In this document: one piece after another, positions 5,033 through 31,669 of the stretch | Position numbering within the stretch: the stretch's first letter is position 1 | Layout: the number at the start of each line of letters is the position of its first letter | Assembly (NCBI GenBank): GCA_030673825.1 | Contig: JAUTCS010000082.1 | Span: forward strand, 1-38,240 | DNA length: 38,240 bases | Reading direction: 5' to 3' | Source: Verrucomicrobiota bacterium JB024 | Lineage (GTDB): Bacteria > Verrucomicrobiota > Verrucomicrobiia > Opitutales > Cerasicoccaceae | Notes under the pieces: model-generated | What the model was told of the DNA's origin: nothing | What the model saw: only the letters and a program-made list of their open reading frames with translations | Database searches by the model: none | Made by a program: the position numbers and the translations under genes

Positions 5033-5128
5033 GGCCGGGTCCCATGCAACGACGAACCGGCGAATCCCGCCAGGTCCGGAAGGAAGCAACGGTAGCCAGG
5101 ATTCGCGTGTGCCGTGGGGTGCCTGGCC
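5033..5128 (+). ncRNA. ffs: Small (4.5S-type) signal recognition particle RNA
   Basis: The strand carries the near-invariant SRP domain IV core, GGTCCGGAAGGAAGCA at 5073-5088, with a GGAA tetraloop (5078-5081) and the opposing bulge side AGCAACGGTAGCC. The arms pair outward: GCGAATCC with GGATTCGC, then GGCCGGGT-CCC at the 5' end with GGGGTGCCTGGCC at the 3' end. A T6 run (5129-5134) follows the stem and serves as the terminator. The length of about 96 nt means the Alu domain is absent, as in most Gram-negative bacteria. The RNA binds Ffh and directs co-translational membrane targeting. It lies about 110 bp upstream of dnaX; ffs/scr next to dnaX is a recurrent arrangement in bacteria. Confidence 0.93.
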
Positions 5129-5237
5129 TTTTTTATGCCCGGATATCTCGCTCTGCGAGGTGGGTGGATCGCTAAAAATCACCCGGGCGGCGTTTCTTCG
5201 TTGAAGCCCCCGGCCCGGTCCCGCAATCTGTTTTCCC

Positions 5238-9610: not shown

Positions 9611-12463
9611 CTACCAATCTTTACGTTTGCCCTCGTCGTCCACGTTATATTGCTGCGGGACGTAGAGCGAAGGCAGTTTCTTGTCATCTTTTTTCAGGGC
9701 GTCGAGCAGGCGGCGGGCTTCCTCGCGCGTCATCACACCGGGGACGCGGGGCACATCCTTGGCCTCTTCGCCGCCTTCGCCCACGGCGGCGGCGGGCTTT
9801 TTCTCGCCCTCCTTACCACCGGCCTCGGCGGCAGCCTGCTGCTCCTTGGCGACCTGTTCGGAAAGCTCCTTCAACTGCTCCTGGCTCAAACCCTCTTCGC
9901 CGGGACCTCCCTGGTCCTGTTGCGGCTCAGCACCGGCGGGCTGCTGTTGCTGGCCGCTCTGGCCGGGCTGAGGCTGTTGAGACTCTTGCTGTTTTTGTGA
10001 ATCTTCTTCTCCGGGTTGTTCGCCTTTGTCCTGTTGTTCTTCTTCGGGTTTCTGCTGATCCTGGCCAGACTGATCCTCTCCGGAGGAGTTTTCATCCTGC
10101 TTCTGTGAATCTTGCTGGTCGGGCTGCTCCTGCTCGCCCGATTGCTGCTTTTGCTGCTGGTCGGAGGCGTTGTCCTGATTTTGTTGCTGCTCTCCGGACT
10201 GTTGCTGGTCCTGCTGCCCCGATTGCTGGTTCTGGTTTTGTGAATTCTGTTGGTCCTGCTGGCCGCTGTCTTGCTGGTTCTGCTGAGACTGATCCTGATT
10301 CTGCTGCTGGCTGGAATCGGAGGAGGACTGCTGATTGTTCTGTTGGTTTTGCTGCTGCTGATTCTGATCGTTCTGTTGCTGCTGGTCCTGCGATTGCTGC
10401 TGATCGTCCTGCTGGTTCTGGTCCTGGTTTTGCTGATCCTGATTCTGTTGGTCGTTTTGTTGGTTCTGATCGTTCTGCTGTTGTTCGAGCAGCTTTTTGA
10501 GTTCGTCGATCAGCATGCCGAGCACCTCGGCGTTTTCGGCGAGCTGTTTGGCTTCCTTGGAAAAGGCTTCATTGTTCTCGGCCTGGCGATCGAGCTTGCG
10601 AGTGACGACGTCCAGATTGTGCGCGGCGTCCCGGCTGTCAGGGGCCAGCTCCAGCGAACTCTTGTACTCGTCGGCGGCCTCGCGCCAAAAGGTCGCGCTG
10701 TTCTCACCGGCGCTGGCGGTGGACTCGCTCTGCTCCTGAGCCTGTGTGGTGGCTTGCTTCGCCTGCTCGGCTTGTTGGATAGCCTGCTGAATCTCCTGCT
10801 GCGGGACCATGGTCTGCGTGGTTTCCTCACTGCGCAGCGCGGCAGGGGTGCGGTTGGGCTCGGCACGCTTGAGGATGTCGTTGCCGGTGTCGAGCGCCTG
10901 CTTCGTCTGCGCGAAGGCGGACTCGTTGGCCCGACGGACATCTTCGGCGGGCGGAGTGTCGGCGAGCGCGGCCTTGCCGAGCTGGTAGCTGGCGTTGCCC
11001 AAATTATAAAACGCGTCTGCCTGGAGCTCCAGGTCGAGCGCGGTCAATGCCTGCTGATAGGCCTGACGGGCGGCCTCGTATTCACCCTGCGCGTAAAGGC
11101 TGTTGCCGAGATTGTAGCTGGCCTCCGAGTCAGCAGGGTTAGCGGTCGCGGCGGCAGCGTACGCCTGAGCAGCAGCCGTGTAGTTGCCGGATCGATACAG
11201 CTTGGCCGCCTGCGCGGGAGTGAGGGTGACGACGGGCGGGGAGGGCTCGGTCTCAGAGGATTCATCCGCAGAGTCGGACGGAGCTTCGGGCGGGGTCGCT
11301 GGTGCCGAGGCCGGAGTCGTGATCGGCGCTCCCGTCGGAGCGGGGCTGCTCGTCTGGGCGTGTGCATTCGTCGGCGTCAGGAGACAGGCGGCCCCCAGTA
11401 GCGCAGCCATCGCAGCGGCGGCGTTTTGTTTTCCTTTGGACAGCTTGCGCAGGCGGCGACGCAGGAACAGCTTGCGGGTGCCCACCAGCGGTTCCCACGC
11501 CAGCAGGAAGAGCGCGAGCCCGAGCGGCCACTGGAAGCGTTCGATGCCGATCTTGGTGCGGCGGCTGCCGAGGTCCTGGTCGGGAATGGACTTCAGCCCA
11601 GACTCGAATACCTGCTCCAGCCCGTAGCCCGAAGCGCCCAGTGGTACATAAAATCCCCCCGTGGCCTCGGCGATGTCCCTGAGCGTCTGCTCGTCGAGGC
11701 GGGTCGTGACGGGCTTGCCGTCGCTGTCACGCAGATACTCGATCTGGCCGCGTGCGGTTTCAACGGGGATGAGCTCGCCCTCGGGCGTGCCAACGCCGAC
11801 GGTGTAAACGGTCATGCCGCGTGAGGCCAGCAGCCGGGCCTGTTCGACGCCACTTTCCTCTAAATCCTCGCCATCGGTGATGAGGACGACGACCTTGTGA
11901 TTGTTGTCTTCGCTAAAGGCGTTCTCGGCCTCGGTCAGGGCACGGGCGATGTCCGTGCCGCCGTGGGAGATGACATTCGTGTCCACGGCCTCCAGCGCGA
12001 GACGGAAGGCGTCGTAGTCCAGCGTGAGCGGGCACTGGAGAAACGCGTTGCCAGCGAAGGCGACGAGCCCGACGCGGTCGCCGGGGATCTTGTCCACGAA
12101 GTCGAGGATGGCGAGCTTCGAGCGCTCCAGGCGGTTGGGCCGGATGTCCTGCGCGAGCATGCTCTTGGAAGAGTCGAGGACAAACAGCACGTCGATGCCG
12201 CGGGCGGGCGACTCGCGCCAGGTGTAGCCGTACTCCGGACGGGCCAGCGCGAGCATGACCAGCGCGATCCCTGCGGCGATCAGCAGGTGCTTGAAGCGAC
12301 GGCGGGCGGGGCTGAAGGAACGCAGCAGCCCGGTTAGCAACCGGTCCGCGGCGAACTTGCCCAGCTCGCGTTTACGGGCGCGCGCGGCCAGGTGGAACAG
12401 GAACCACAGGACCAGCAGCGCGGCTGGGATGGCGTAGAGCCAGACTGGAGAGTGGAAGGTCAC
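9611..12463 (-). CDS. Fused BatB-BatC: VWA + TPR + Q/N-rich protein
   Basis: 950 aa, starting with GTG that overlaps the batA stop (GTGA). Order: N-terminal membrane segment; a second at about 60-80 (LLIAAGIALVMLALARPEY); a VWA domain with MIDAS residues (VLDSSKSML, VVLITDGEDLEESG); a membrane segment near 315-333; then a second signal-like stretch at about 343-371 (MAALLGAACLLTPTNAHAQ). After it come TPRs (LYRSGNYTAAAQAYAAAATA, ASYNLGNSLYAQGEYEAARQ), a helical region, a Gln/Asn/Asp/Ser-rich tract at about 661-855, and the conserved C-terminal end (MTREEARRLLDALKKDDKKL). BatB and BatC are usually separate genes; here one frame covers both. Predicted location: membrane-anchored, with the TPR and Q-rich parts probably periplasmic. 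The low-complexity DNA uses mixed CAG/CAA/AAC/AAT codons. Confidence 0.88.
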   Translation of the reverse strand: MTFHSPVWLYAIPAALLVLWFLFHLAARARKRELGKFAADRLLTGLLRSFSPARRRFKHLLIAAGIALVMLALARPEYGYTWRESPARGIDVLFVLDSSKSMLAQDIRPNRLERSKLAILDFVDKIPGDRVGLVAFAGNAFLQCPLTLDYDAFRLALEAVDTNVISHGGTDIARALTEAENAFSEDNNHKVVVLITDGEDLEESGVEQARLLASRGMTVYTVGVGTPEGELIPVETARGQIEYLRDSDGKPVTTRLDEQTLRDIAEATGGFYVPLGASGYGLEQVFESGLKSIPDQDLGSRRTKIGIERFQWPLGLALFLLAWEPLVGTRKLFLRRRLRKLSKGKQNAAAAMAALLGAACLLTPTNAHAQTSSPAPTGAPITTPASAPATPPEAPSDSADESSETEPSPPVVTLTPAQAAKLYRSGNYTAAAQAYAAAATANPADSEASYNLGNSLYAQGEYEAARQAYQQALTALDLELQADAFYNLGNASYQLGKAALADTPPAEDVRRANESAFAQTKQALDTGNDILKRAEPNRTPAALRSEETTQTMVPQQEIQQAIQQAEQAKQATTQAQEQSESTASAGENSATFWREAADEYKSSLELAPDSRDAAHNLDVVTRKLDRQAENNEAFSKEAKQLAENAEVLGMLIDELKKLLEQQQNDQNQQNDQQNQDQQNQDQNQQDDQQQSQDQQQQNDQNQQQQNQQNNQQSSSDSSQQQNQDQSQQNQQDSGQQDQQNSQNQNQQSGQQDQQQSGEQQQNQDNASDQQQKQQSGEQEQPDQQDSQKQDENSSGEDQSGQDQQKPEEEQQDKGEQPGEEDSQKQQESQQPQPGQSGQQQQPAGAEPQQDQGGPGEEGLSQEQLKELSEQVAKEQQAAAEAGGKEGEKKPAAAVGEGGEEAKDVPRVPGVMTREEARRLLDALKKDDKKLPSLYVPQQYNVDDEGKRKDW

Positions 12464-16382: not shown

Positions 16383-16682
16383 CTGGGCTTATGCAGCCCA
16401 GACCCGCAGCAGGCATAGCCTGCACTTTCGATGCTGCGCATCGCATCAGCGTTTGTGGAAAACAGCTTTGCTCTTTTCCACAAACGCTGAGGGGGCATCA
16501 AAACTGGGTCGCCACCTTGGGGAACAGCCGTAAGCCATACTCTCTTATAATGGCGAGCCCGTGTCAGGGAAGGCTACAAAGTCGGTCCGGCGTTTTTGCG
16601 CAGCACGGACGCCGGACCGAGGGTGCAGCCCTGGATGCTGGTCCAGCCGGACCTGCCGCGGGTGCGGGGCGCGCAGCCCCGC
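16383..16682 (+). repeat. Structured repeat element E, copy 1
   Basis: This 300-bp non-coding element fills most of the 492-bp gap between moxR and glnA. The left end is a hairpin CTGGGC...GCCCAG (16383-16401) and the right end a hairpin GCGGGGC...GCCCCGC (up to 16682); the right end, inverted, matches the left (GACCCGCAGCAGG against CACCCGCGGCAGG). Internal hairpins: GCAGGC/GCCTGC (16409-16423), GATGC/GCATC (16430-16442) and a 17-bp stem TCAGCGTTTGTGGAAAA (16446-16462) with its complement (16474-16490). A variable centre follows with GCCAT/ATGGC (16533-16553), then a conserved segment GAAGGCTACAAAGTCGG and a GGTCCGGCGT/ACGCCGGACC stem. It ends 11 bp from the glnA stop. Both flanking genes run on the minus strand, so this copy is antisense to them. 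Confidence 0.88.
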
Positions 16683-16693
16683 ATTCCTCCCAC

Positions 16694-18109
<1,416 letters not shown>

Positions 18110-23967: not shown

Positions 23968-25248
23968 ATGATCGACATCAAACTCTTACGCGAGGACATC
24001 GAAGGCCTCAAGACCGCCATCGCCCGCAAGAAATTCACCGTGGAGTGGGACGCCATCCTGCGTCTGGACGAGGAACGCCGCGCCGCCATTCTCAAGGCCG
24101 AGACCGCCCGTGCCGAGCAGAAGGCCGCCAGCAAGGAAGTGGGCCAGTTCAAGGACAAGTCCTCGCCCGAGTTTCAGGCCAAGCTGGCCGCCATGAAGGG
24201 CCTCTCCGAGGAGGTCAAGGCCCTCGAAGCCGAAGCCACCGAGGTTGAAGCCCAGTGGAAGGCGCTTTTCCTGTCCATCCCGAACATTCCGGACGCCAGC
24301 GTGCCCGCAGGCCGTACAGAGGACGATAACGTCGTGGCCGCCACCTGGGGCGACCCCAAGACCGTCTCCGCCAGCGCCGTGCCGCACTGGGACATCCCGT
24401 GGTTCGCGCAGGCGATCGACTTCGAGCGCGGGGTCAAGGCCACCGGCGCGGGCTTCCCGTTTTATGTCGGCGACATGGCCCGCCTCGTGCGCGCGCTGAT
24501 CAGTTTCTTTTTGGAAGAGGCACGCCTCAATGGCTACGAGGAAGTTCTCCCGCCGCTCATGGTCAACGCCGCCAGCGCCACCGCCACCGGCCAGCTCCCC
24601 GACAAGGAGGGGCAGATGTACCACATGCCCGTGGAGGATTTTTACATGATCCCGACCGCCGAGGTCCCGGTCACGAACTTCTTCCGCGAGGAGACCTTCG
24701 ACGAGGCCGACCTGCCCGTGTACCGCTGCGGCTACACCCCGTGCTTCCGCCGGGAGGCCGGGAGCTGGGGCAAGCACGTGCGCGGCCTCAACCGCCTGCA
24801 CCAGTTCGACAAGGTCGAGCTCGTCAAGTGGGTCCACCCGGACAAGAGCTTCGAGGAGCTGGAGCTGCTGCGTGGTAACGCCGAAGTCATCCTGCAAAAG
24901 CTCGGCCTGCCGTACCGCGTGCTGCTCATGTGTGCCGGAGACATCGGATTCCCGCATGCCAAGCAGTACGACCTCGAAGTCTGGGCCGGCGGCCAGCAGC
25001 GCTGGCTCGAAGTGTCGAGCTGCTCTAACTTTACCGACTTCCAGGCCCGCCGCGCGGGCATCCGCTTCCGCCCCAAGGGCGGCGGCAAGTCCGAGATAGT
25101 CCACACCCTCAACGGCTCCGGCCTCGCCGTCCCGCGCGTGCTCGCCGCCCTCCTGGAAAATAACCTCCAGGCCGACGGCACCGTCAAGGTCCCCGAGTGC
25201 CTCCACCGCTGGACCGGCTTCGAGACCCTGGCCCCGAAAGCGAAGTAG
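23968..25248 (+). CDS. serS: Seryl-tRNA synthetase
   Basis: 426 aa; charges tRNA-Ser (and tRNA-Sec if present) in the cytoplasm. The N-terminal coiled coil that grips the long variable arm is visible from residue 1 to about 100 (MIDIKLLREDIEGLKTAIAR, EQKAASKEVGQFKDKSS, EEVKALEAEATEVEAQWKAL). The catalytic core has IPTAEVPVTNFFREETFDE, motif 2 (CFRREAGSWGKHVRGLNRLH, then QFDKVELVKWVHP), EVSSCSNFTDFQARRAGIRF, and motif 3 (TLNGSGLAVPRVLAALLENN). The length is normal and the ATG gives the standard MIDIKLLR start. The gene stands alone on the plus strand. Copy 2 of element E begins 13 bp after its stop. Confidence 0.97.
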   Translation: MIDIKLLREDIEGLKTAIARKKFTVEWDAILRLDEERRAAILKAETARAEQKAASKEVGQFKDKSSPEFQAKLAAMKGLSEEVKALEAEATEVEAQWKALFLSIPNIPDASVPAGRTEDDNVVAATWGDPKTVSASAVPHWDIPWFAQAIDFERGVKATGAGFPFYVGDMARLVRALISFFLEEARLNGYEEVLPPLMVNAASATATGQLPDKEGQMYHMPVEDFYMIPTAEVPVTNFFREETFDEADLPVYRCGYTPCFRREAGSWGKHVRGLNRLHQFDKVELVKWVHPDKSFEELELLRGNAEVILQKLGLPYRVLLMCAGDIGFPHAKQYDLEVWAGGQQRWLEVSSCSNFTDFQARRAGIRFRPKGGGKSEIVHTLNGSGLAVPRVLAALLENNLQADGTVKVPECLHRWTGFETLAPKAK

Positions 25249-25261
25249 GGAGAGGGGAGGG

Positions 25262-25544
25262 CTGGGCTTATGCAGCCCAGACCCGCAGCAGACAAAGTCT
25301 GCACTTTCGATGCTGCGCATCGCGTCAGCGTTTGTTGAAAACAGCTCCGCTCTTTTCAACAAACGCTGAGGGAGCATCAAAACTGGGTCGCACCATTAAG
25401 ACCTGCCGAGAGTCACCCCCCTTTTTCTTGTGGCGAACCTGTGTCAATTGAAGGCTACAAAGTCGGTACCGCGGTTGTGGGCAGCACCGAACCCCCACCG
25501 ATGGTGCAGCCCAGGATGCCGCGGGTGCGGGGCGCGTAGCCCCC
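25262..25544 (+). repeat. Structured repeat element E, copy 2
   Basis: The 283-bp element occupies the whole gap between serS and tilS and ends on the base before the tilS ATG. It differs from copies 1 and 3 in ways that keep pairing: GCAGAC/GTCTGC (25288-25302) replaces GCAGGC/GCCTGC, and GTTG/CAAC inside the 17-bp stem (25325-25341 with 25353-25369) replaces GTGG/CCAC. The variable centre has GTCAC/GTGGC (25412-25434). The conserved GAAGGCTACAAAGTCGG is intact. The GGTCCGGCGT stem is degraded and the GGTCC-AGCC-GGACC hairpin is missing. The right-end hairpin is GGGGC-GCGTA-GCCCC. It is the most diverged of the three. Confidence 0.88.
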
Positions 25545-27011
25545 ATGAAAACCAGCATTGCCAGCGCATGGGGCATCACGCAGGCTGCGGGGATGTTGCC
25601 CTGGCACGAGAGAGCCGAAGCTGTGGCCGCCGCGCTTGCGGCGGAGCGGCTGGACTGGCCTGAAAAGGTCGCCGAGCCCATTGGGGTAGGGTGCTCGGGC
25701 GGGGCGGACTCGGTGTGTTTGTTGTTGCTGGCCTGGCTGCGTTACGGGAACGAACTGCGGGTGCTGCACCTGAACCACGGTTTACGTGGCGCGGAATCTG
25801 ACGCTGACGCCGCCTTTGTGGAAAATTTGGCCGGAGAGCTGGGGGTGGGCTTTGTCGGGGATAAACTGGAGGGGCTGCCCGAAGAGCCATCCGAAGCGTT
25901 GTTAAGGGAGCGACGGCTCGATTTCTACCGTCAAAGCGGCTGTGCGACGGTCCTGCTGGGCCACCACGCCGACGACGTGGCGGAAACATTACTCATGCGC
26001 CTGAGCCGGGGCAGCGGTACCGAGGGACTGGCCGCGCCGTTGCCGACGCAGCGATTTTCGGATGGGTTGGCGCTCATTCGCCCGTTGTTGGCCATTTCCA
26101 AAGCCAAACTCCTCGATGCGCTGGCTAAAAACGACATGCCCTGGCGCGAAGACGCCAGCAATGCCGCCCCCGACTACTTCCGTAACCGCGTACGTGCCGA
26201 CGTGTTGCCCGCGCTGCTGGCTGCCGCCCCCGGCAACGCCCGTACCGGGTTGGCCCGCTCCCACCGGTTGCTGGCCGAGGACGCCGAGGCGCTCAATGCC
26301 TGGCTCAATACCCTCGGGCTGAAAATCGAAGCGTGTAAACCGCTGGACCTGGCCCTTTTACGACACACGCCGGTCGCCCTTTGGAGACGTGCTCTCCAGC
26401 GTTGGCTCGCGGTGAACGGCTTGCGCGAGCACCTCTCGGCAGGGGCGGTGGATGCGCTGCTGGATGAGCTGCGCACGGGGCGGAACGGCCGCTTCAGCGC
26501 CGGAGCCCGTACGTGGCTGGTCTTTGACTGGGGGAGGCTGATGCTGGAAAAGCCGGTCGAGGGCGAAAACTCACCCTGGCCGGATACCTGCTTGCGGCCA
26601 GGGCAGACGCTGAACCTGCCCACTGGCCACGAGCTCAAGGCGGAACTGGTCAGCCTCGACGACGTGACGTGTGCGGCGATTCTCAAGGGCAAGTTTGACA
26701 ATCGAACCTGTGTCTATCTGGAAGCCAACGGCTTACGCTTCCCTTTACTGGTGCGCCAGTGGCGCGACGGGGATCGCTACCTGCCGCTGGGCGCTCCGGG
26801 CACCCGCAAGCTCCAAGACTGCTTCACCGACGCAAAAATCCCCGCCCGGGAACGAAAACAGCTGCCGGTTGTCTGTTGGGGCTCGGGCAATATTATCCTC
26901 TGGGTGCCCGGTTTGCCCCCTGATGAGTATGTTAAAGTGACGACGGGCACGGTTTTGGCTCTTCGGTTGACTTACTCCGCTTATTCGCAGAAGATTGCAG
27001 CGTTTGTTTAA
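25545..27011 (+). CDS. tilS: tRNA(Ile)-lysidine synthase
   Basis: 488 aa; converts the wobble C of the tRNA-Ile CAU anticodon to lysidine using ATP and lysine. The PP-loop SGGADS is at 51-56 (GVGCSGGADSVCLLLL), followed by LHLNHGLRGAESDADAAFV, LGHHADDVAETLLMRLSRGS, RPLLAISKAKL, the WREDASNA tRNA-contact segment and RNRVRADVLPAL. The C-terminal domain ends near DRYLPLGAPGTRKLQDCFTD and IPARERKQLPVVCWGSGNII, typical of long TilS forms. The ATG at 25545 directly follows element E. ATG at 25593 (MLPWHERAEAV), preceded by GCGGGG, is an equally plausible start and removes 16 residues not needed by the fold. ftsH begins on the next base after the stop, a known tilS-ftsH neighbourhood. Confidence 0.95.
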   Translation: MKTSIASAWGITQAAGMLPWHERAEAVAAALAAERLDWPEKVAEPIGVGCSGGADSVCLLLLAWLRYGNELRVLHLNHGLRGAESDADAAFVENLAGELGVGFVGDKLEGLPEEPSEALLRERRLDFYRQSGCATVLLGHHADDVAETLLMRLSRGSGTEGLAAPLPTQRFSDGLALIRPLLAISKAKLLDALAKNDMPWREDASNAAPDYFRNRVRADVLPALLAAAPGNARTGLARSHRLLAEDAEALNAWLNTLGLKIEACKPLDLALLRHTPVALWRRALQRWLAVNGLREHLSAGAVDALLDELRTGRNGRFSAGARTWLVFDWGRLMLEKPVEGENSPWPDTCLRPGQTLNLPTGHELKAELVSLDDVTCAAILKGKFDNRTCVYLEANGLRFPLLVRQWRDGDRYLPLGAPGTRKLQDCFTDAKIPARERKQLPVVCWGSGNIILWVPGLPPDEYVKVTTGTVLALRLTYSAYSQKIAAFV

Positions 27012-29156
27012 ATGAGTGATAATTCCCACAACGACTCCGGCTCCTCGCAGAAGCCGCCCTCGCCACAGGGTTTCCAGCCCAAGGTTTATGTCATCTGGCT
27101 CGCGCTGATCGGCCTGATCCTGATGCTCATGTACATGTACCCGGGCGAGCACACCGGCGCGCAAAACCTTGAAATCAATCAGGTTATAAAGATGGCGGAG
27201 GCCGGGGACCTCGTTTCGGTCTCGATCAAGTCCGACCCCAACGGTGGCGACCAGTGGTATAAGGTCTGGGGTGAGATGAAGAACCCCGCGCTGGTCAAGA
27301 CCGCCGATACCCAGGCGGACGCGACCGCTAAAGAAGCCGCCCCCAAGCCCGAGGCCAAGGAAGGCCTGCTCTCCGAGGTCGAGAAAACCTTCACCGCCGC
27401 CGAAAACGCGGACAAGAAAATCCCCGCGACGATCGCCTTTACCTCGCAGGGTCGCCTGACCGACGAGCGCTTTAACCAGCTCACCTCGCCGAGCAACCCT
27501 TACGAGATCAAGGAAGAGCCAGCCAGCACCATGTTCCAGAGCTTCCTGGTCGGGCTGCTGCCGATCCTGCTCATCATCGGGCTCTTATATTTCCTTTTCA
27601 CCCGCCAGCTCCGCGCTGCCGGCAAGGGCGCGATGAGCTTCGGCAAGAGCCGCGCCAAGCTCCTGACCCGCGACAAGGAGCGGGTGGTCTTCCGCGACGT
27701 GGCCGGGTGCGACGAGGCCAAGGAAGAAGTCTCCGAAGTCGTGGACTTCCTCAAGGACCCGAAGAAGTTTCAGAAAATCGGGGGCCGCGTGCCCAAGGGC
27801 ATCCTCATGGTGGGCCCTCCCGGGACCGGTAAGACCCTGCTGGCCAAGGCTGTGGCCGGGGAGGCCGATGTGCCGTTTTTCAGCATCAGCGGTTCGGATT
27901 TCGTGGAAATGTTCGTCGGCGTGGGCGCGGCCCGCGTGCGTGACATGTTCGAGCAGGGCCGCAAGAACGCCCCGTGCCTGATCTTTATCGACGAAATCGA
28001 CGCCGTCGGTCGCCAGCGTGGTGCCGGCCTCGGCGGCGGGAACGACGAGCGCGAGCAGACCCTGAACTCCCTGCTGGTCGAGATGGACGGCTTCGACGGG
28101 CACGAGGGGGTCATCATCATTGCTGCGACCAACCGCCCGGACGTGCTCGATAGCGCCTTGCTGCGTCCCGGTCGTTTCGACCGTCAGGTCATGATCGACC
28201 TGCCCGACCTCAAGGGCCGTGAAGAGATTTTAAAGGTCCACGCCAAGAAGATCAAAATGTCCGTCGATGTGGACCTCGTGCGCGTGGCCCGCGTCACCGC
28301 CGGTTTCTCCGGCGCGGACCTGGCCAACCTGCTCAACGAGGCCGCCCTCGTGGCCGCCCGCTATAACAAGTCCGAGGTTCAGATGGCCGACGTCGAGGAG
28401 GCCCGCGACAAGATCGCCTTTGGCCGCGAGCGCCGCAAGGTCATGGACGAAGACGACAAGCGCGCCACCGCCTACCACGAGGCCGGACACGCCCTCGTGC
28501 AGGCCGTCCTCAAGGACAAGAAGCGCGAGCTGCACAAGGTCACCATTCTCCCGCGCGGACGCGCACTCGGGATGGCCATGACCACCCCGACGAAGGAAGT
28601 TTTAGGCTACTCCAAGCAGGACCTGCTCAACTTCATCTGCATGGCCATGGCGGGCCGTATCGGTGAGGAGATCGAGACCGGCGACTTTTCCAACGGCGCC
28701 GCCTCCGACATCAAGCAGGCCACCGACATCGCCCGACGCATGGTCTGCGACTGGGGTATGAGCGAACTCGGCCCGGTCGCCCTCGGTGACAATCAGGAGC
28801 ACATCTTCCTGGCCAAGGAAATCACCCGCAGCCAGAACTACAGCGACGATACCGCCCGCATGATCGACCGCGAAATCCGACGGATCATTCAGGAGCAGTA
28901 CGACCGCGCCCACCAGATCATCTCCGAGCACAAGGAGGCCCATCAGAAGGTCGCCGACGCGCTGCTGGAGTACGAAACCATCGAGGGCAAGCACGTCAAC
29001 GAGATCCTGGAGTTCGGCGAGATGCGCTCGCCCGTTATCTCCAACTCGCCGCCCCCCCTCGAAAAGCCCGCTCCGGACAAGGAAAAGAAAAAGCCCGCCT
29101 CCGACGAAGGCGAGGAAATGGGCCCCACCAGCGCCCCCGCCGGTTTACCCGCTTAA
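27012..29156 (+). CDS. ftsH: ATP-dependent zinc metalloprotease FtsH
   Basis: 714 aa, membrane-bound AAA+ protease that degrades misfolded membrane and regulatory proteins. Two N-terminal membrane segments ([20 protein letters not shown], residues 24-43; [20 protein letters not shown], about 178-197) enclose a periplasmic domain of about 130 residues with an Ala/Lys/Glu-rich stretch ([19 protein letters not shown]). AAA domain: Walker A GPPGTGKT (268-275), pore loop [15 protein letters not shown], Walker [12 protein letters not shown], and the second region of homology with [20 protein letters not shown]. Protease zinc site HEAGH at 489-493 and the third ligand in the [20 protein letters not shown] region. 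The ATG follows the tilS TAA with no gap, so translation is probably coupled. Copy 3 of element E begins 8 bp after the stop. Confidence 0.98.
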
Positions 29157-29163
29157 GGTGGTT

Positions 29164-29521
29164 GCGGGGCTGCGCGCCCCGGACCCGCAGCTGGGCTTAT
29201 GCAGCCCAGACCCGCAGCAGGCACAGCCTGCACTTTCGATGCTTGCAGCATCGCATCAGCGTTTGTGGAAAACAGCTCCGCTTTTTTCCACAAACGCTGA
29301 GGGAGCATCAAAACTGGGTCGCCACCATGTAGAACACCCAGTCGACCACGCAAAATATTCAATGGTGTTCTCGTGTCAGGGAAGGCTACAAAGTCGGTCC
29401 GGCGTTTGTGCGCAGCACGGACGCCGGACCGGGGGTGCAGCCCTGAATGCTGGTCCAGCCGGACCTGCCGCGGGTCCGGGCTGCGTAAGCCCGGCGCAGG
29501 GTGCGGGGCGCGGAGCCCCGC
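29164..29521 (+). repeat. Structured repeat element E, copy 3 (longest)
   Basis: The 358-bp element fills the gap between the convergent ends of ftsH and ovoA. Each end carries two hairpins rather than one: on the left GCGGGGCTGCGCGCCCC (29164-29180) then CTGGGC/GCCCAG (29191-29209); on the right CCGGGCTGCGTAAGCCCGG and GCGGGGCGCGGAGCCCCGC (to 29521). The right end inverted matches the left over about 60 bp. Internal hairpins: GCAGGC/GCCTGC (29217-29231); GATGCT/AGCATC (29238-29252), one base pair longer than in copies 1 and 2; and the 17-bp stem 29256-29272 with 29284-29300. The variable centre pairs GAACACC (29332-29338) with GGTGTTC (29364-29370). GAAGGCTACAAAGTCGG and the GGTCCGGCGT stem are intact. 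Confidence 0.9.
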
Positions 29522-29524
29522 GTC

Positions 29525-31669
29525 TCACTGAAGCGTCCAGAAGGTGACCTGCGAGAGGGCGTGGTCCCAGGTGCGGCCGCTGCGGCGCAGGGCGAAGGGC
29601 ACATCGACGGGTTCGCGGGACTCCCGGAAGCGGGGGAGGAGGGCGGCGAGGCCGTCGCGGGTGGAGACGTTTTCGCCGGTGGCGTCCTTGTAGCCGCCGA
29701 TCCAGTGTTCCTTTTTCGTAAAGGATTCGCGCCACTCGTTCGTGCAGGCGATGACGAGCAGGCCGCCGGGGTTGAGGCGCTCGTGGACGGTTTTGAGGAA
29801 CTGGGCCGGGTTGTAGGAGCGCTCCAGCAGGTTGGTGACCACGATCAGATCGAAGCCCCGGTAGAGGTCTTTCATGTTCGAGAGGTCGGCCTGCATGAAC
29901 TCGACCTTGCCGCGCGAGGCGTCGAGTCCGAGGTCTTTCAGGTTGGCCTGGCGGAAGTCCACCAGCTCGCCCTCGCGGGGGATTTCCCACTGGGTGTAGC
30001 CCTTGTCGGTCATTTCCACGCCGATGCGGATGGTGCGGGCGGTCGGGTCGAGCGCGAGGACGGAGTCGAACTCCACCGCTAGCTCGAAGGCCGTCCGCCC
30101 GACCTTGCAGCCCAGCTCCATGGCTCGGGTGCGGGGGCGACCCTGGACAGCGTCGAGACAGAGCTGGGCGAGCTTTTCCGGGAAATTCTCCAGCCCGAGC
30201 GCGTCGGGACCGTAGTGCAGCTCGCAGTGGGGGACGACGTCGGGGTCGGTCTCGTAGCGGTCGTCGGGAATGACGACCTCGGCCTCGGCCTCCACATAGC
30301 GGAACCCGGCGTGCTGGTAAAAGTGGCGACGGAAGGCGTAGCGGGACTGGCGGGTGGCCTCGTTACCGGTGGAGATCCACGAGCCGCCCTTGATCAGGTT
30401 GTGCTTGGTGTCAAAGGTCGGGGTGGAAAAGTCGTCGTAGAGCGGATGCACCTCGAAGCCGGGGAAGCCCGCGATGGGCGTCTCGGTATGCTGCCAGACA
30501 TTACCCAAAATATCGTAAAACCCTTGGCCGAAGGCGTGCCGGTCCACCGGGACGGACGAGGCGGTCTCGTTCAGATTGAGGTTGCCGGGAGCCTCGTCGC
30601 TCCAGCCATCCATGTCGGGGGTCTGAGAATAATCCAGCAAGCTGTACCACTCCTCCTCGGTGGGCAGGCGGATGGGCTGGCCGGTTTGGGCGGCCTTCCA
30701 GTTGCAGAAGGCTTTCGCCTCCAGGTAATTCGTTTCCACCGGCCAGGACCAGGGCATCTCGATCTCTTCCAGCATGCAGCGCAAGCGGTAGGCGCCGTCC
30801 TTGTCCTTGCGCCAGAAGCGCGGCATGCCGCGCCCCTCGTAGCTCGCCCAGTGCCAGCCCTCATCGGTCCAGTAACGCTGCTCGGTATAGCCGCCGTCCT
30901 CGATAAACTCCAAAAACTCGCGGTTGCTCACGAGGTACTTCGACGCCTTGAACGGTGCGACTTCGGCCTCGCGGTGGCCGTACTCGTTGTCCCAGCCGTA
31001 GAACTTGCCGTGCTCGCGGGACTTGCCCAGCTCGACGATGCCGCCGGGCACGGGCAGGAGGGTGTTCGCGGGCGGCGCGGTGTCGAGGCGGGCGATTTCC
31101 CAGGCCGGGTGCTTTTGGACCAGTTCGAGAGGGAGTTGACGGATGAGCACGGAAGAGGTCTCCAGGTGGATGCGCTCGTGCTCGATACCCATGAGGATGA
31201 TCCAGAACGGGCTGTCCCAGCCGATGGGCAGGCTGAGCGGCAGCGAGGAAATGAGCCCGTCAATGGCGGCGCGGGCCTTGTCTCGGTAGGCCTTGACCTC
31301 CTCGGGGGTGGGCCATTCGTAGTGGGCCTCGTTGAGGTCGTCCCAGCTCATCTCGTCCACCCCGACGGCGCAGAGCGACTCCAGACGCGGGTCCAGCCGG
31401 TGGTCGAGGATTTTGCCCAAAACGAGCTTATTGATGAAGAAGACCGCCGTGTGCCCGTAATAAAAGATCAGCGGGTGGCGCAGCGGGTCGGCCCGTGTGG
31501 TGTAGGCCTCGGGGCTGGCCAGCGTCTCGAAGAGCGTCTCGTAAGCGTCGTAGGTGGCGTGGAAGTACTGGCGGATTTCCTCGCGCTTGGCCTCGGGATC
31601 ACCGGCGTCCAAGCGCGGCGAAAAGGGACGGGCAAACTCAAGTGTGTCGGCGGAATAGAGAGCGGGCAT
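29525..31669 (-). CDS. ovoA: 5-histidylcysteine sulfoxide synthase / N-methyltransferase OvoA
   Basis: 714 aa. OvoA joins cysteine to histidine C5 with O2 and iron, and its methyltransferase domain completes ovothiol A after sulfur release. Three parts are seen. A DinB-like N-terminal domain holds the iron motif HxxxHxE (GIEHERIHLETSS; His164, His168, Glu170). An FGE-like/sulfatase-modifying domain runs from about 200 to 460 (YGWDNEYGHREAEVAPFKAS, LVSNREFLEFIEDGGY, RLPTEEEWYSLL, YDILGNVWQHTETPI, HNLIKGGSWISTGNEATRQS). A SAM methyltransferase follows (AMELGCKVGRTAFELAVEF, then FDLIVVTNLLERSYNP and HERLNPGGLLVIACTNEWRE). EgtB lacks the methyltransferase, so OvoA is preferred. It is a single gene, with copy 3 of element E past its stop. 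Confidence 0.92.
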   Translation of the reverse strand: MPALYSADTLEFARPFSPRLDAGDPEAKREEIRQYFHATYDAYETLFETLASPEAYTTRADPLRHPLIFYYGHTAVFFINKLVLGKILDHRLDPRLESLCAVGVDEMSWDDLNEAHYEWPTPEEVKAYRDKARAAIDGLISSLPLSLPIGWDSPFWIILMGIEHERIHLETSSVLIRQLPLELVQKHPAWEIARLDTAPPANTLLPVPGGIVELGKSREHGKFYGWDNEYGHREAEVAPFKASKYLVSNREFLEFIEDGGYTEQRYWTDEGWHWASYEGRGMPRFWRKDKDGAYRLRCMLEEIEMPWSWPVETNYLEAKAFCNWKAAQTGQPIRLPTEEEWYSLLDYSQTPDMDGWSDEAPGNLNLNETASSVPVDRHAFGQGFYDILGNVWQHTETPIAGFPGFEVHPLYDDFSTPTFDTKHNLIKGGSWISTGNEATRQSRYAFRRHFYQHAGFRYVEAEAEVVIPDDRYETDPDVVPHCELHYGPDALGLENFPEKLAQLCLDAVQGRPRTRAMELGCKVGRTAFELAVEFDSVLALDPTARTIRIGVEMTDKGYTQWEIPREGELVDFRQANLKDLGLDASRGKVEFMQADLSNMKDLYRGFDLIVVTNLLERSYNPAQFLKTVHERLNPGGLLVIACTNEWRESFTKKEHWIGGYKDATGENVSTRDGLAALLPRFRESREPVDVPFALRRSGRTWDHALSQVTFWTLQ

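Follow-up and report, generated by a model that had tools for sequence, protein, structure and literature searches.

The window analysed here, a stretch of 38,240 nucleotides from Verrucomicrobiota bacterium JB024 (contig JAUTCS010000082.1), carries three copies of a repeat designated E, all on the plus strand of the contig. Copy 1 (16383..16682), a full copy without IS630-type terminal repeats, adjoins the minus-strand gene for glutamine synthetase (16694-18109) at its 3' end. Copy 2 (25262..25544) is flanked by two plus-strand genes, one for seryl-tRNA synthetase (23968-25248) and the other tilS-like (25545-27011). Copy 3 (29164..29521), the longest and the one with doubled end hairpins, occupies the convergent gap between an ftsH-like gene (27012-29156, plus strand) and a minus-strand gene that encodes an FGE-sulfatase domain (29525-31669). 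Among relatives that bear a species name, those closest to the FtsH-like protein come from Cerasicoccus (69-71%), which suggests a source in or near that group. The positions, common strand and order of parts given for these copies in the initial annotation were upheld. Elsewhere in the window, the single Rfam match was a bacterial small SRP RNA (5033-5131, 73 bits), and degenerate 33-nt CTG-rich direct repeats (family D2) were noted at 10205-10450 within a long ORF on the minus strand (9611-12463).

In copy 1 the parts run, on the plus strand, from a left end hairpin (16383..16401) through hairpin P2 (GCAGGC..GCCTGC, 16409..16423), which pairs throughout the family, hairpin P3 (CGATGC-TGC-GCATCG, 16429..16443), whose loop reads GCA on the opposite strand, and a central 21-bp hairpin with a triloop, P4 (16446..16490), to a conserved box, GCATCAAAACTGGGTCGCCACC (16495..16516), which forms the 3' end of the core. 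Beyond it lie a second box, GTGTCAGGGAAGGCTACAAAGTCGG (16561..16585), a right stem with a GCA loop (16584..16618) and a right end hairpin (16664..16682) that is inverted with respect to the left end. Copy 3 likewise carries on the plus strand P2 (29217..29231), P3 (29237..29253), P4 (29256..29300), the GCATCAAAACTGGGTCGCCACC box (29305..29326) and a right stem with two T.G pairs and a GCA loop (29396..29430), set between a left terminal inverted repeat (29164..29221) and its right counterpart (29464..29521, minus strand). P4 of copy 2 lies at 25325..25369 (plus strand), and the inverted end hairpin of this copy is followed by GCACCCGCGGC. The layout is thus shared in general, with the exception that the GGTCCGGCGT stem of copy 2 is, by reading, degenerate.

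In BLAST alignments copy 3 was 88% identical to copy 1 across 305 positions and 81% identical to copy 2 across 265. The ends are mutually inverted, as had been described: the left and right repeats of copy 3 match at 84% over 58 bp, and the ends of copy 1 match the opposite ends of copy 3, in inverted orientation, at 87.5-90% over 31-32 bp. As single-stranded DNA, copy 1 folds far more stably than dinucleotide shuffles (z -8.0; none of 200 shuffles reached its value). A chance origin of the three copies was rejected on the strength of this fold and of the further BLAST matches.

These matches numbered at least 72 to copy 3 in the window's own genome (G000) when 40 of 100 first-look candidates were scored, and reading reduced them to about 40 separate places once the self-palindrome and partial matches had been set aside. 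Several fell at contig ends, which is to be expected of repeats that break assemblies. Further copies were also present in three sister genomes of the same genus (G001, G002 and G003), and motif-based excision from stretches fetched from the four genomes gave 122 distinct cores (49 in G000, 42 in G001, 17 in G002 and 14 in G003). A covariance model of the core, of 139 positions, gave 124, 133, 65 and 31 matches in the four genomes respectively at E <= 0.01 with 150 candidates scored per genome, counts that take in weak and backward-read matches. In a phylum sample of 387 genomes, searched with stricter filters and 8 candidates scored per genome, matches at E <= 1e-3 were confined to the same four genomes; an order sample of 372 genomes, searched in the same way, added weak matches in G005, G008, G021 and G471. 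The relatives found beyond the genus are thus weak or partial.

The core of about 135 nt consists of an end hairpin, ACCC(C)GC, P2, ACTTT, P3 (CGATGC..GCATCG), P4 and the box GCATCAAAACTGGGTCGCC, with invariant boxes lying outside the stems. In some copies it is followed by a second, inverted end module. The tip of the right stem was found within the fetched locus for at least 23 of 103 cores, a lower bound set by the fixed tip pattern, which indicates that the unit common to the copies is the core, the full layout first described being a minority form. Several cores of G001 are followed by other hairpin modules, making the family a mosaic. By reading, six of these loci (L087, L112, L114, L115, L127 and L135) share a different downstream module, GGCATTTTC..GAAAATGCC together with GTGATCC..GGATCAC. 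Two loci of G000 (L024 and L037) carry the right modules with the left part swapped for another hairpin repeat of the GGCCAGAAAGGCCGC type, a hint that modules were exchanged or insertions nested.

No protein of E's own was found. The initial annotation had recognised no named family, and a search of 11 E loci against Rfam 15 at permissive E-values likewise returned no family at the gathering cut-off. Searches with copy 1 of 50,697 phage records and 72,556 plasmid records were likewise negative. The exact core pattern had no match in viral contigs or in a named genome collection; the latter probably includes G003, many of whose copies spell the box otherwise. The open-access literature, to which the search was confined with subscription papers outside its scope, yielded no description of the family, which is thus apparently undescribed.

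Many cores of G002 and G003 lie between terminal inverted repeats of about 40 bp that start CTAGTGTnCCGT. A search for this terminal pattern with at most 2 mismatches returned 69 matches in G002, 53 in G003, 8 in G004, 4 in G001, 2 in G000 and 1 in G005; the reversed pattern, used as a control, gave 0 to 2 per genome and none in G002 and G003. Both terminal repeats were present on 11 of the 122 cores (one in G000, seven in G002 and three in G003), ten of these elements measuring 206-211 bp and one 192 bp, and a single repeat was present on 10 more. TA stood at both outer ends in 10 of the 11 two-ended copies, mostly in a CTAG context, in a comparison where the end pattern itself contains TA (4 substitutions allowed); the remaining copy had GA at its right end. 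The sole two-ended copy of G000 lies at a CTAG that, by reading, apparently overlaps the TAG stop codon of a gene. In a tree of the cores with the hairpin removed, where so short an alignment gave little resolution (7 of 115 inner branches starred), the copies with IS630-type ends clustered, requiring 5 changes against 18.9 when shuffled, and are compatible with a single clade.

The same ends, again with CTAG, bound insertion sequence copies of about 1.15 kb in G002, which encode proteins of 359-365 amino acids with DDE_3 and HTH_32 domains that we take to be of the IS630 family. A search for relatives of one G002 transposase returned six stop-free matches in G002, one in G005 and a fragment in G000, and no match in G001, G003 or G004. 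These ends also flank short elements that have no E core, so the core is dispensable for this type of transposon. Three such MITEs (L238 and L239 in G002, L240 in G003) measure about 145-152 bp, and two copies once stand head to tail. With terminal repeats common to a resident IS630-family element and TA at its ends, the two-ended subfamily would, to judge from its sequence, be classed as IS630-type MITEs resembling RUP. Neither IS630-type end was found on 101 of the 122 cores, the three window copies among them; these three therefore do not have terminal repeats of their own of the kind that defines such MITEs.

The siting against gene ends first noticed in the window holds broadly. Among 109 copies, 13 of the 122 at contig edges having been dropped, 62 lay in convergent gaps as judged with a simple ORF caller, compared with 12 of the 87 control gaps taken in those loci (Fisher p 2.7e-10). 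Control gaps had to measure 20-600 bp and to separate ORFs no shorter than 300 bp, a limit that did not apply to the E gaps. Where the upstream gene points towards a copy, the copy mostly starts shortly past its stop codon. The observation that all copies point the same way stands for the window's three and fails in the closed genome G001, where the 52 best matches comprised 25 plus and 27 minus. Nor did orientation follow replication there, with 12 plus and 12 minus copies in the skew-positive part and 13 plus and 15 minus in the skew-negative part, skew being taken from sampled loci.

The place of copy 1 was free of the element in G001, G002 and G003. At the place of copy 2, G001 has an E copy behind the matching gene, G002 a GC hairpin only and G003 nothing; the flanks of copy 3 have no E core in G001-G003, G001 carrying a GC hairpin of the end type behind ftsH, where the gene order differs. 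Nine gaps with both flanks matching were occupied in two species, five in the same and four in opposite orientation. This fits the reuse of suitable gaps, and common ancestry may account for the five in the same orientation. Among copies without IS630-type ends, the best pair within a genome was 98% identical and the best pair between genomes 91%, a sign of genome-specific amplification. For such copies the intergenic DNA of the sister genomes is too diverged to reveal an exact target duplication or a clean empty-site junction. The suggestion of a non-autonomous mobile repeat is nevertheless borne out by the many copies, the genome-specific amplification, the element-free site of copy 1 in all three sisters, the site of copy 2 occupied in one sister as well, and the subfamily with IS630-type ends.

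P4, the part of the core that covaries most strongly, had a stem of 20-22 bp and a short loop in the majority of the 105 copies scored, with 84 distinct 5' arms among them. It was fitted as 21 bp and a triloop with at least 17 Watson-Crick pairs, a requirement under which 105 of the 122 cores were scored. Across 100 distinct hairpins, 2047 of 2100 pairs were Watson-Crick, the remainder being 8 G.T, 20 A.C and 25 others; a looser criterion gave 2141 of 2181 Watson-Crick pairs with 2 G.T and 11 A.C (105 of 111 cores with a clear P4). In ten tRNAs from the fetched loci, by comparison, 21 of 218 pairs were G.T and none was A.C. Relative to the commonest pair at each position of P4, 368 cells differed by a transversion-type change and 212 by a transition-type one. 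The loops added a further trait: among 88 pairs of copies with different loops and arms differing at no more than one position, 20 had exactly inverted loops, against 4.2% with shuffled loops (0 of 500 shuffles reached 20 of 88), and among pairs with identical arms 4 of 19 did so. This test covered 103 cores, and related pairs are not independent, so the events are fewer than 20.

Arm homogenisation and spacer inversion are known products of template switching, as far as it is described in PMC8604942 and PMC7202029. The scarcity of G.T pairs, the double changes of transversion type and the inverted loops together point to template switching during replication rather than to the evolution of an RNA helix. 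The strongest covariation in E thus bears the marks of DNA template switching and not of RNA.

We consider it fairly probable that E is a family of non-coding, modular mobile repeats with an IS630-ended subfamily, in which P4 is kept palindromic by template switching. With no protein of its own found, E would rely on others to move. The IS630-family transposase would cut and paste the two-ended copies as RUP-like MITEs, and the remaining copies may owe their spread to past cross-mobilisation or to a helper, since lost, that acted on the hairpin ends. Most copies would insert or persist downstream of genes, in positions that are least damaging. During replication one arm of P4 would template the other, which would homogenise the arms and sometimes invert the loop; the near-perfect palindrome would then follow from one arm serving as the template of its partner.

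A structured RNA with a host function, for example as a 3'-UTR or acting in trans, with conserved folding and mobility as a secondary trait, seems rather unlikely to be the basis of the family, although several observations speak for it. The invariant boxes lie outside the stems, copies behind an inward-pointing upstream gene start mostly near its stop codon, and consensus folding showed two-sided changes at 19 of the 34 pairs of the core and 20 of the 72 of the full element. The right stem also behaves as if the plus strand folds. In a first set of 19 copies, whose search pattern prescribed the tip of the stem and some of the loop, G.T exceeded A.C by 46 to 4. A second set, found by the upstream box only, gave 27 stems with 50 G.T and 4 A.C. 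Reading removed three of them, L019 as a run of G/C where a contig ends, L189 as unrelated and L097 minus as the same place read backwards, which left 24 credible stems. Both T.G pairs were kept in 18 of these 24, and 21 had a G-N-A loop, one of them by way of a closed extra pair. The kept mismatches suggest selection, though the stem is also less diverse than P4 and its youth may explain them instead. Two loci from different genomes, L022 and L104, have identical unusual right-stem arms that are fully Watson-Crick, with loops AAC and GTA, and L092 and L103 of the first set likewise differ from the usual stem.

Against an RNA stands P4, poor in G.U (8 of 2100 pairs, against 21 of 218 in tRNAs) and changing mostly by transversion-type steps. 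The left core, moreover, leans the other way from the right stem, with 25 A.C to 10 G.T (p 0.017), so that no single RNA strand fits both. The closing helix of the core, P1 (GACCC with GGGTC), which covaries by eye, proved insecure: its value was reached by none of 2000 permutations over the 120 of 122 cores that could be scored, a result inflated by related copies, by 49 of 2000 within G000 and by 660 of 2000 within G001, where the helix is thus unsupported. Orientation relative to tandem genes showed no clear bias (20 against 15), and Rfam offered no match.

Relatives in sister genera bear on the same question. At 17 places chosen by the P3 motif (16 of 17 matches, the G022 one omitted, together with L069), where P3 is thus conserved by choice, a hairpin of 6 bp or more immediately preceded P3 at 13 and one of 7 bp or more immediately followed it at 7, against 0.15 and 0.02 expected from shuffled flanks. 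These P2-like and P4-like hairpins, in units that by eye often lie between a stop codon and a terminator, would suit a structured RNA, and their stem sequences differ from those of E. Their homology to E is, from sequence comparison, a strong lead rather than proof. In G006-G009, seven loci (L351, L352 and L360; L350 and L356; L353 and L359) have short units of P2, P3 and a hairpin directly 3' of stop codons, with host genes that look orthologous and, by eye, a terminator-like hairpin after the unit. In L351, L352 and L360 the arms of P2 differ and their complementarity is kept.

Movement as single-stranded DNA by a Y1 transposase (RAYT/TIRYT) recognising the inverted hairpin ends, in the manner of a REPIN or BIME, is improbable. 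The hairpin ends are indeed inverted, and read outward both sides mostly show the same loop type, since 109 of the 113 cores scored for P3 have a G-N-A or G-N-N-A loop there on the opposite strand and the right stem has its G-N-A loop in 21 of 24; this fits recognition as single-stranded DNA or RNA. G000 has four Y1_Tnp matches, three of them over the cut-off. However, Y1_Tnp (PF01797) had no match in G001, G002 or G003, all of which bear E; none of four E-end motifs occurred in the two Y1 loci of G000 that were scanned (L056 and L060), and no GTAG/CGTC tag was noticed by reading at the end hairpins. A chromosome-architecture or replication-linked site, the other function that had been raised, would suit a dispersed, conserved, palindromic and intergenic element and is very improbable given the mixed strands in both skew parts of closed G001 and positions that mostly differ between species.

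Three observations sit uneasily with mobile repeats whose palindrome is maintained by template switching. The right stem keeps its T.G mismatches in 18 of 24 copies, which homogenisation by itself would remove; the core boxes are more conserved than free-riding cargo needs; and similar hairpin orders recur in sister genera. A bolder possibility, which we put forward tentatively, is that the core of E arose long ago and is shared across the family as a structured element with its own function, exerted as single-stranded DNA or RNA to which a host or helper protein binds. Selection would then act on the boxes and P3, IS630-type MITEs would have captured the core as cargo, and P4 would be a natural record of template switching.

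As a family of mobile repeats, E would appear, by analogy, to work like the RUP and BOX elements. RUP, the repeat unit of pneumococcus, is described as a 107-bp element related to IS630-Spn1 with a TA target (PMC2229807; PMC3049150), and both RUP and BOX are reported to be over-represented between convergent genes (PMC3049150). E resembles RUP, as described there, in being non-coding, in its IS630-family-like terminal repeats and TA target and in its preference for convergent gaps, and is set apart from that description by its core of serial hairpins of about 135 nt and by the 101 of 122 cores that have no IS630-type ends. With the BOX elements of Streptococcus, in the account of PMC3049150, it shares modular box combinations, strong folding and convergent gaps; compared with that description, E differs in its inverted hairpin end modules and in having one subfamily on an identified IS630-type transposon. 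Correia/NEMIS and ERIC elements, as presented in PMC2229807, are likewise short and have TA ends, their transcripts fold strongly and RNA effects have been proposed for them; E differs from that portrayal in core layout and range. The GTAG/CGTC REPs with RAYT transposases, of which the verrucomicrobial O. terrae is said to be rich in the GTAG type, are, in the account of PMC3733652, high-copy palindromes as E is; in contrast to their 20-40 bp, E measures about 135-360 bp, and Y1_Tnp had no match in three of the four genus genomes.

In sister species the same folded core is found both with and without IS630-type ends around it, which opens the capture or loss of transposon ends to study. About 100 natural copies of P4, almost all distinct in sequence and almost all without a mispair, and with inverted loops among them, form a readable record of template switching. 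They also carry a warning, as covariation, the usual hallmark of a structural RNA, can come from DNA copying, and the near absence of G.U pairs together with double changes of the transversion type are marks by which the two may be told apart. Were P4 indeed such a record, strong covariation in a repeat family would not need to mean RNA.
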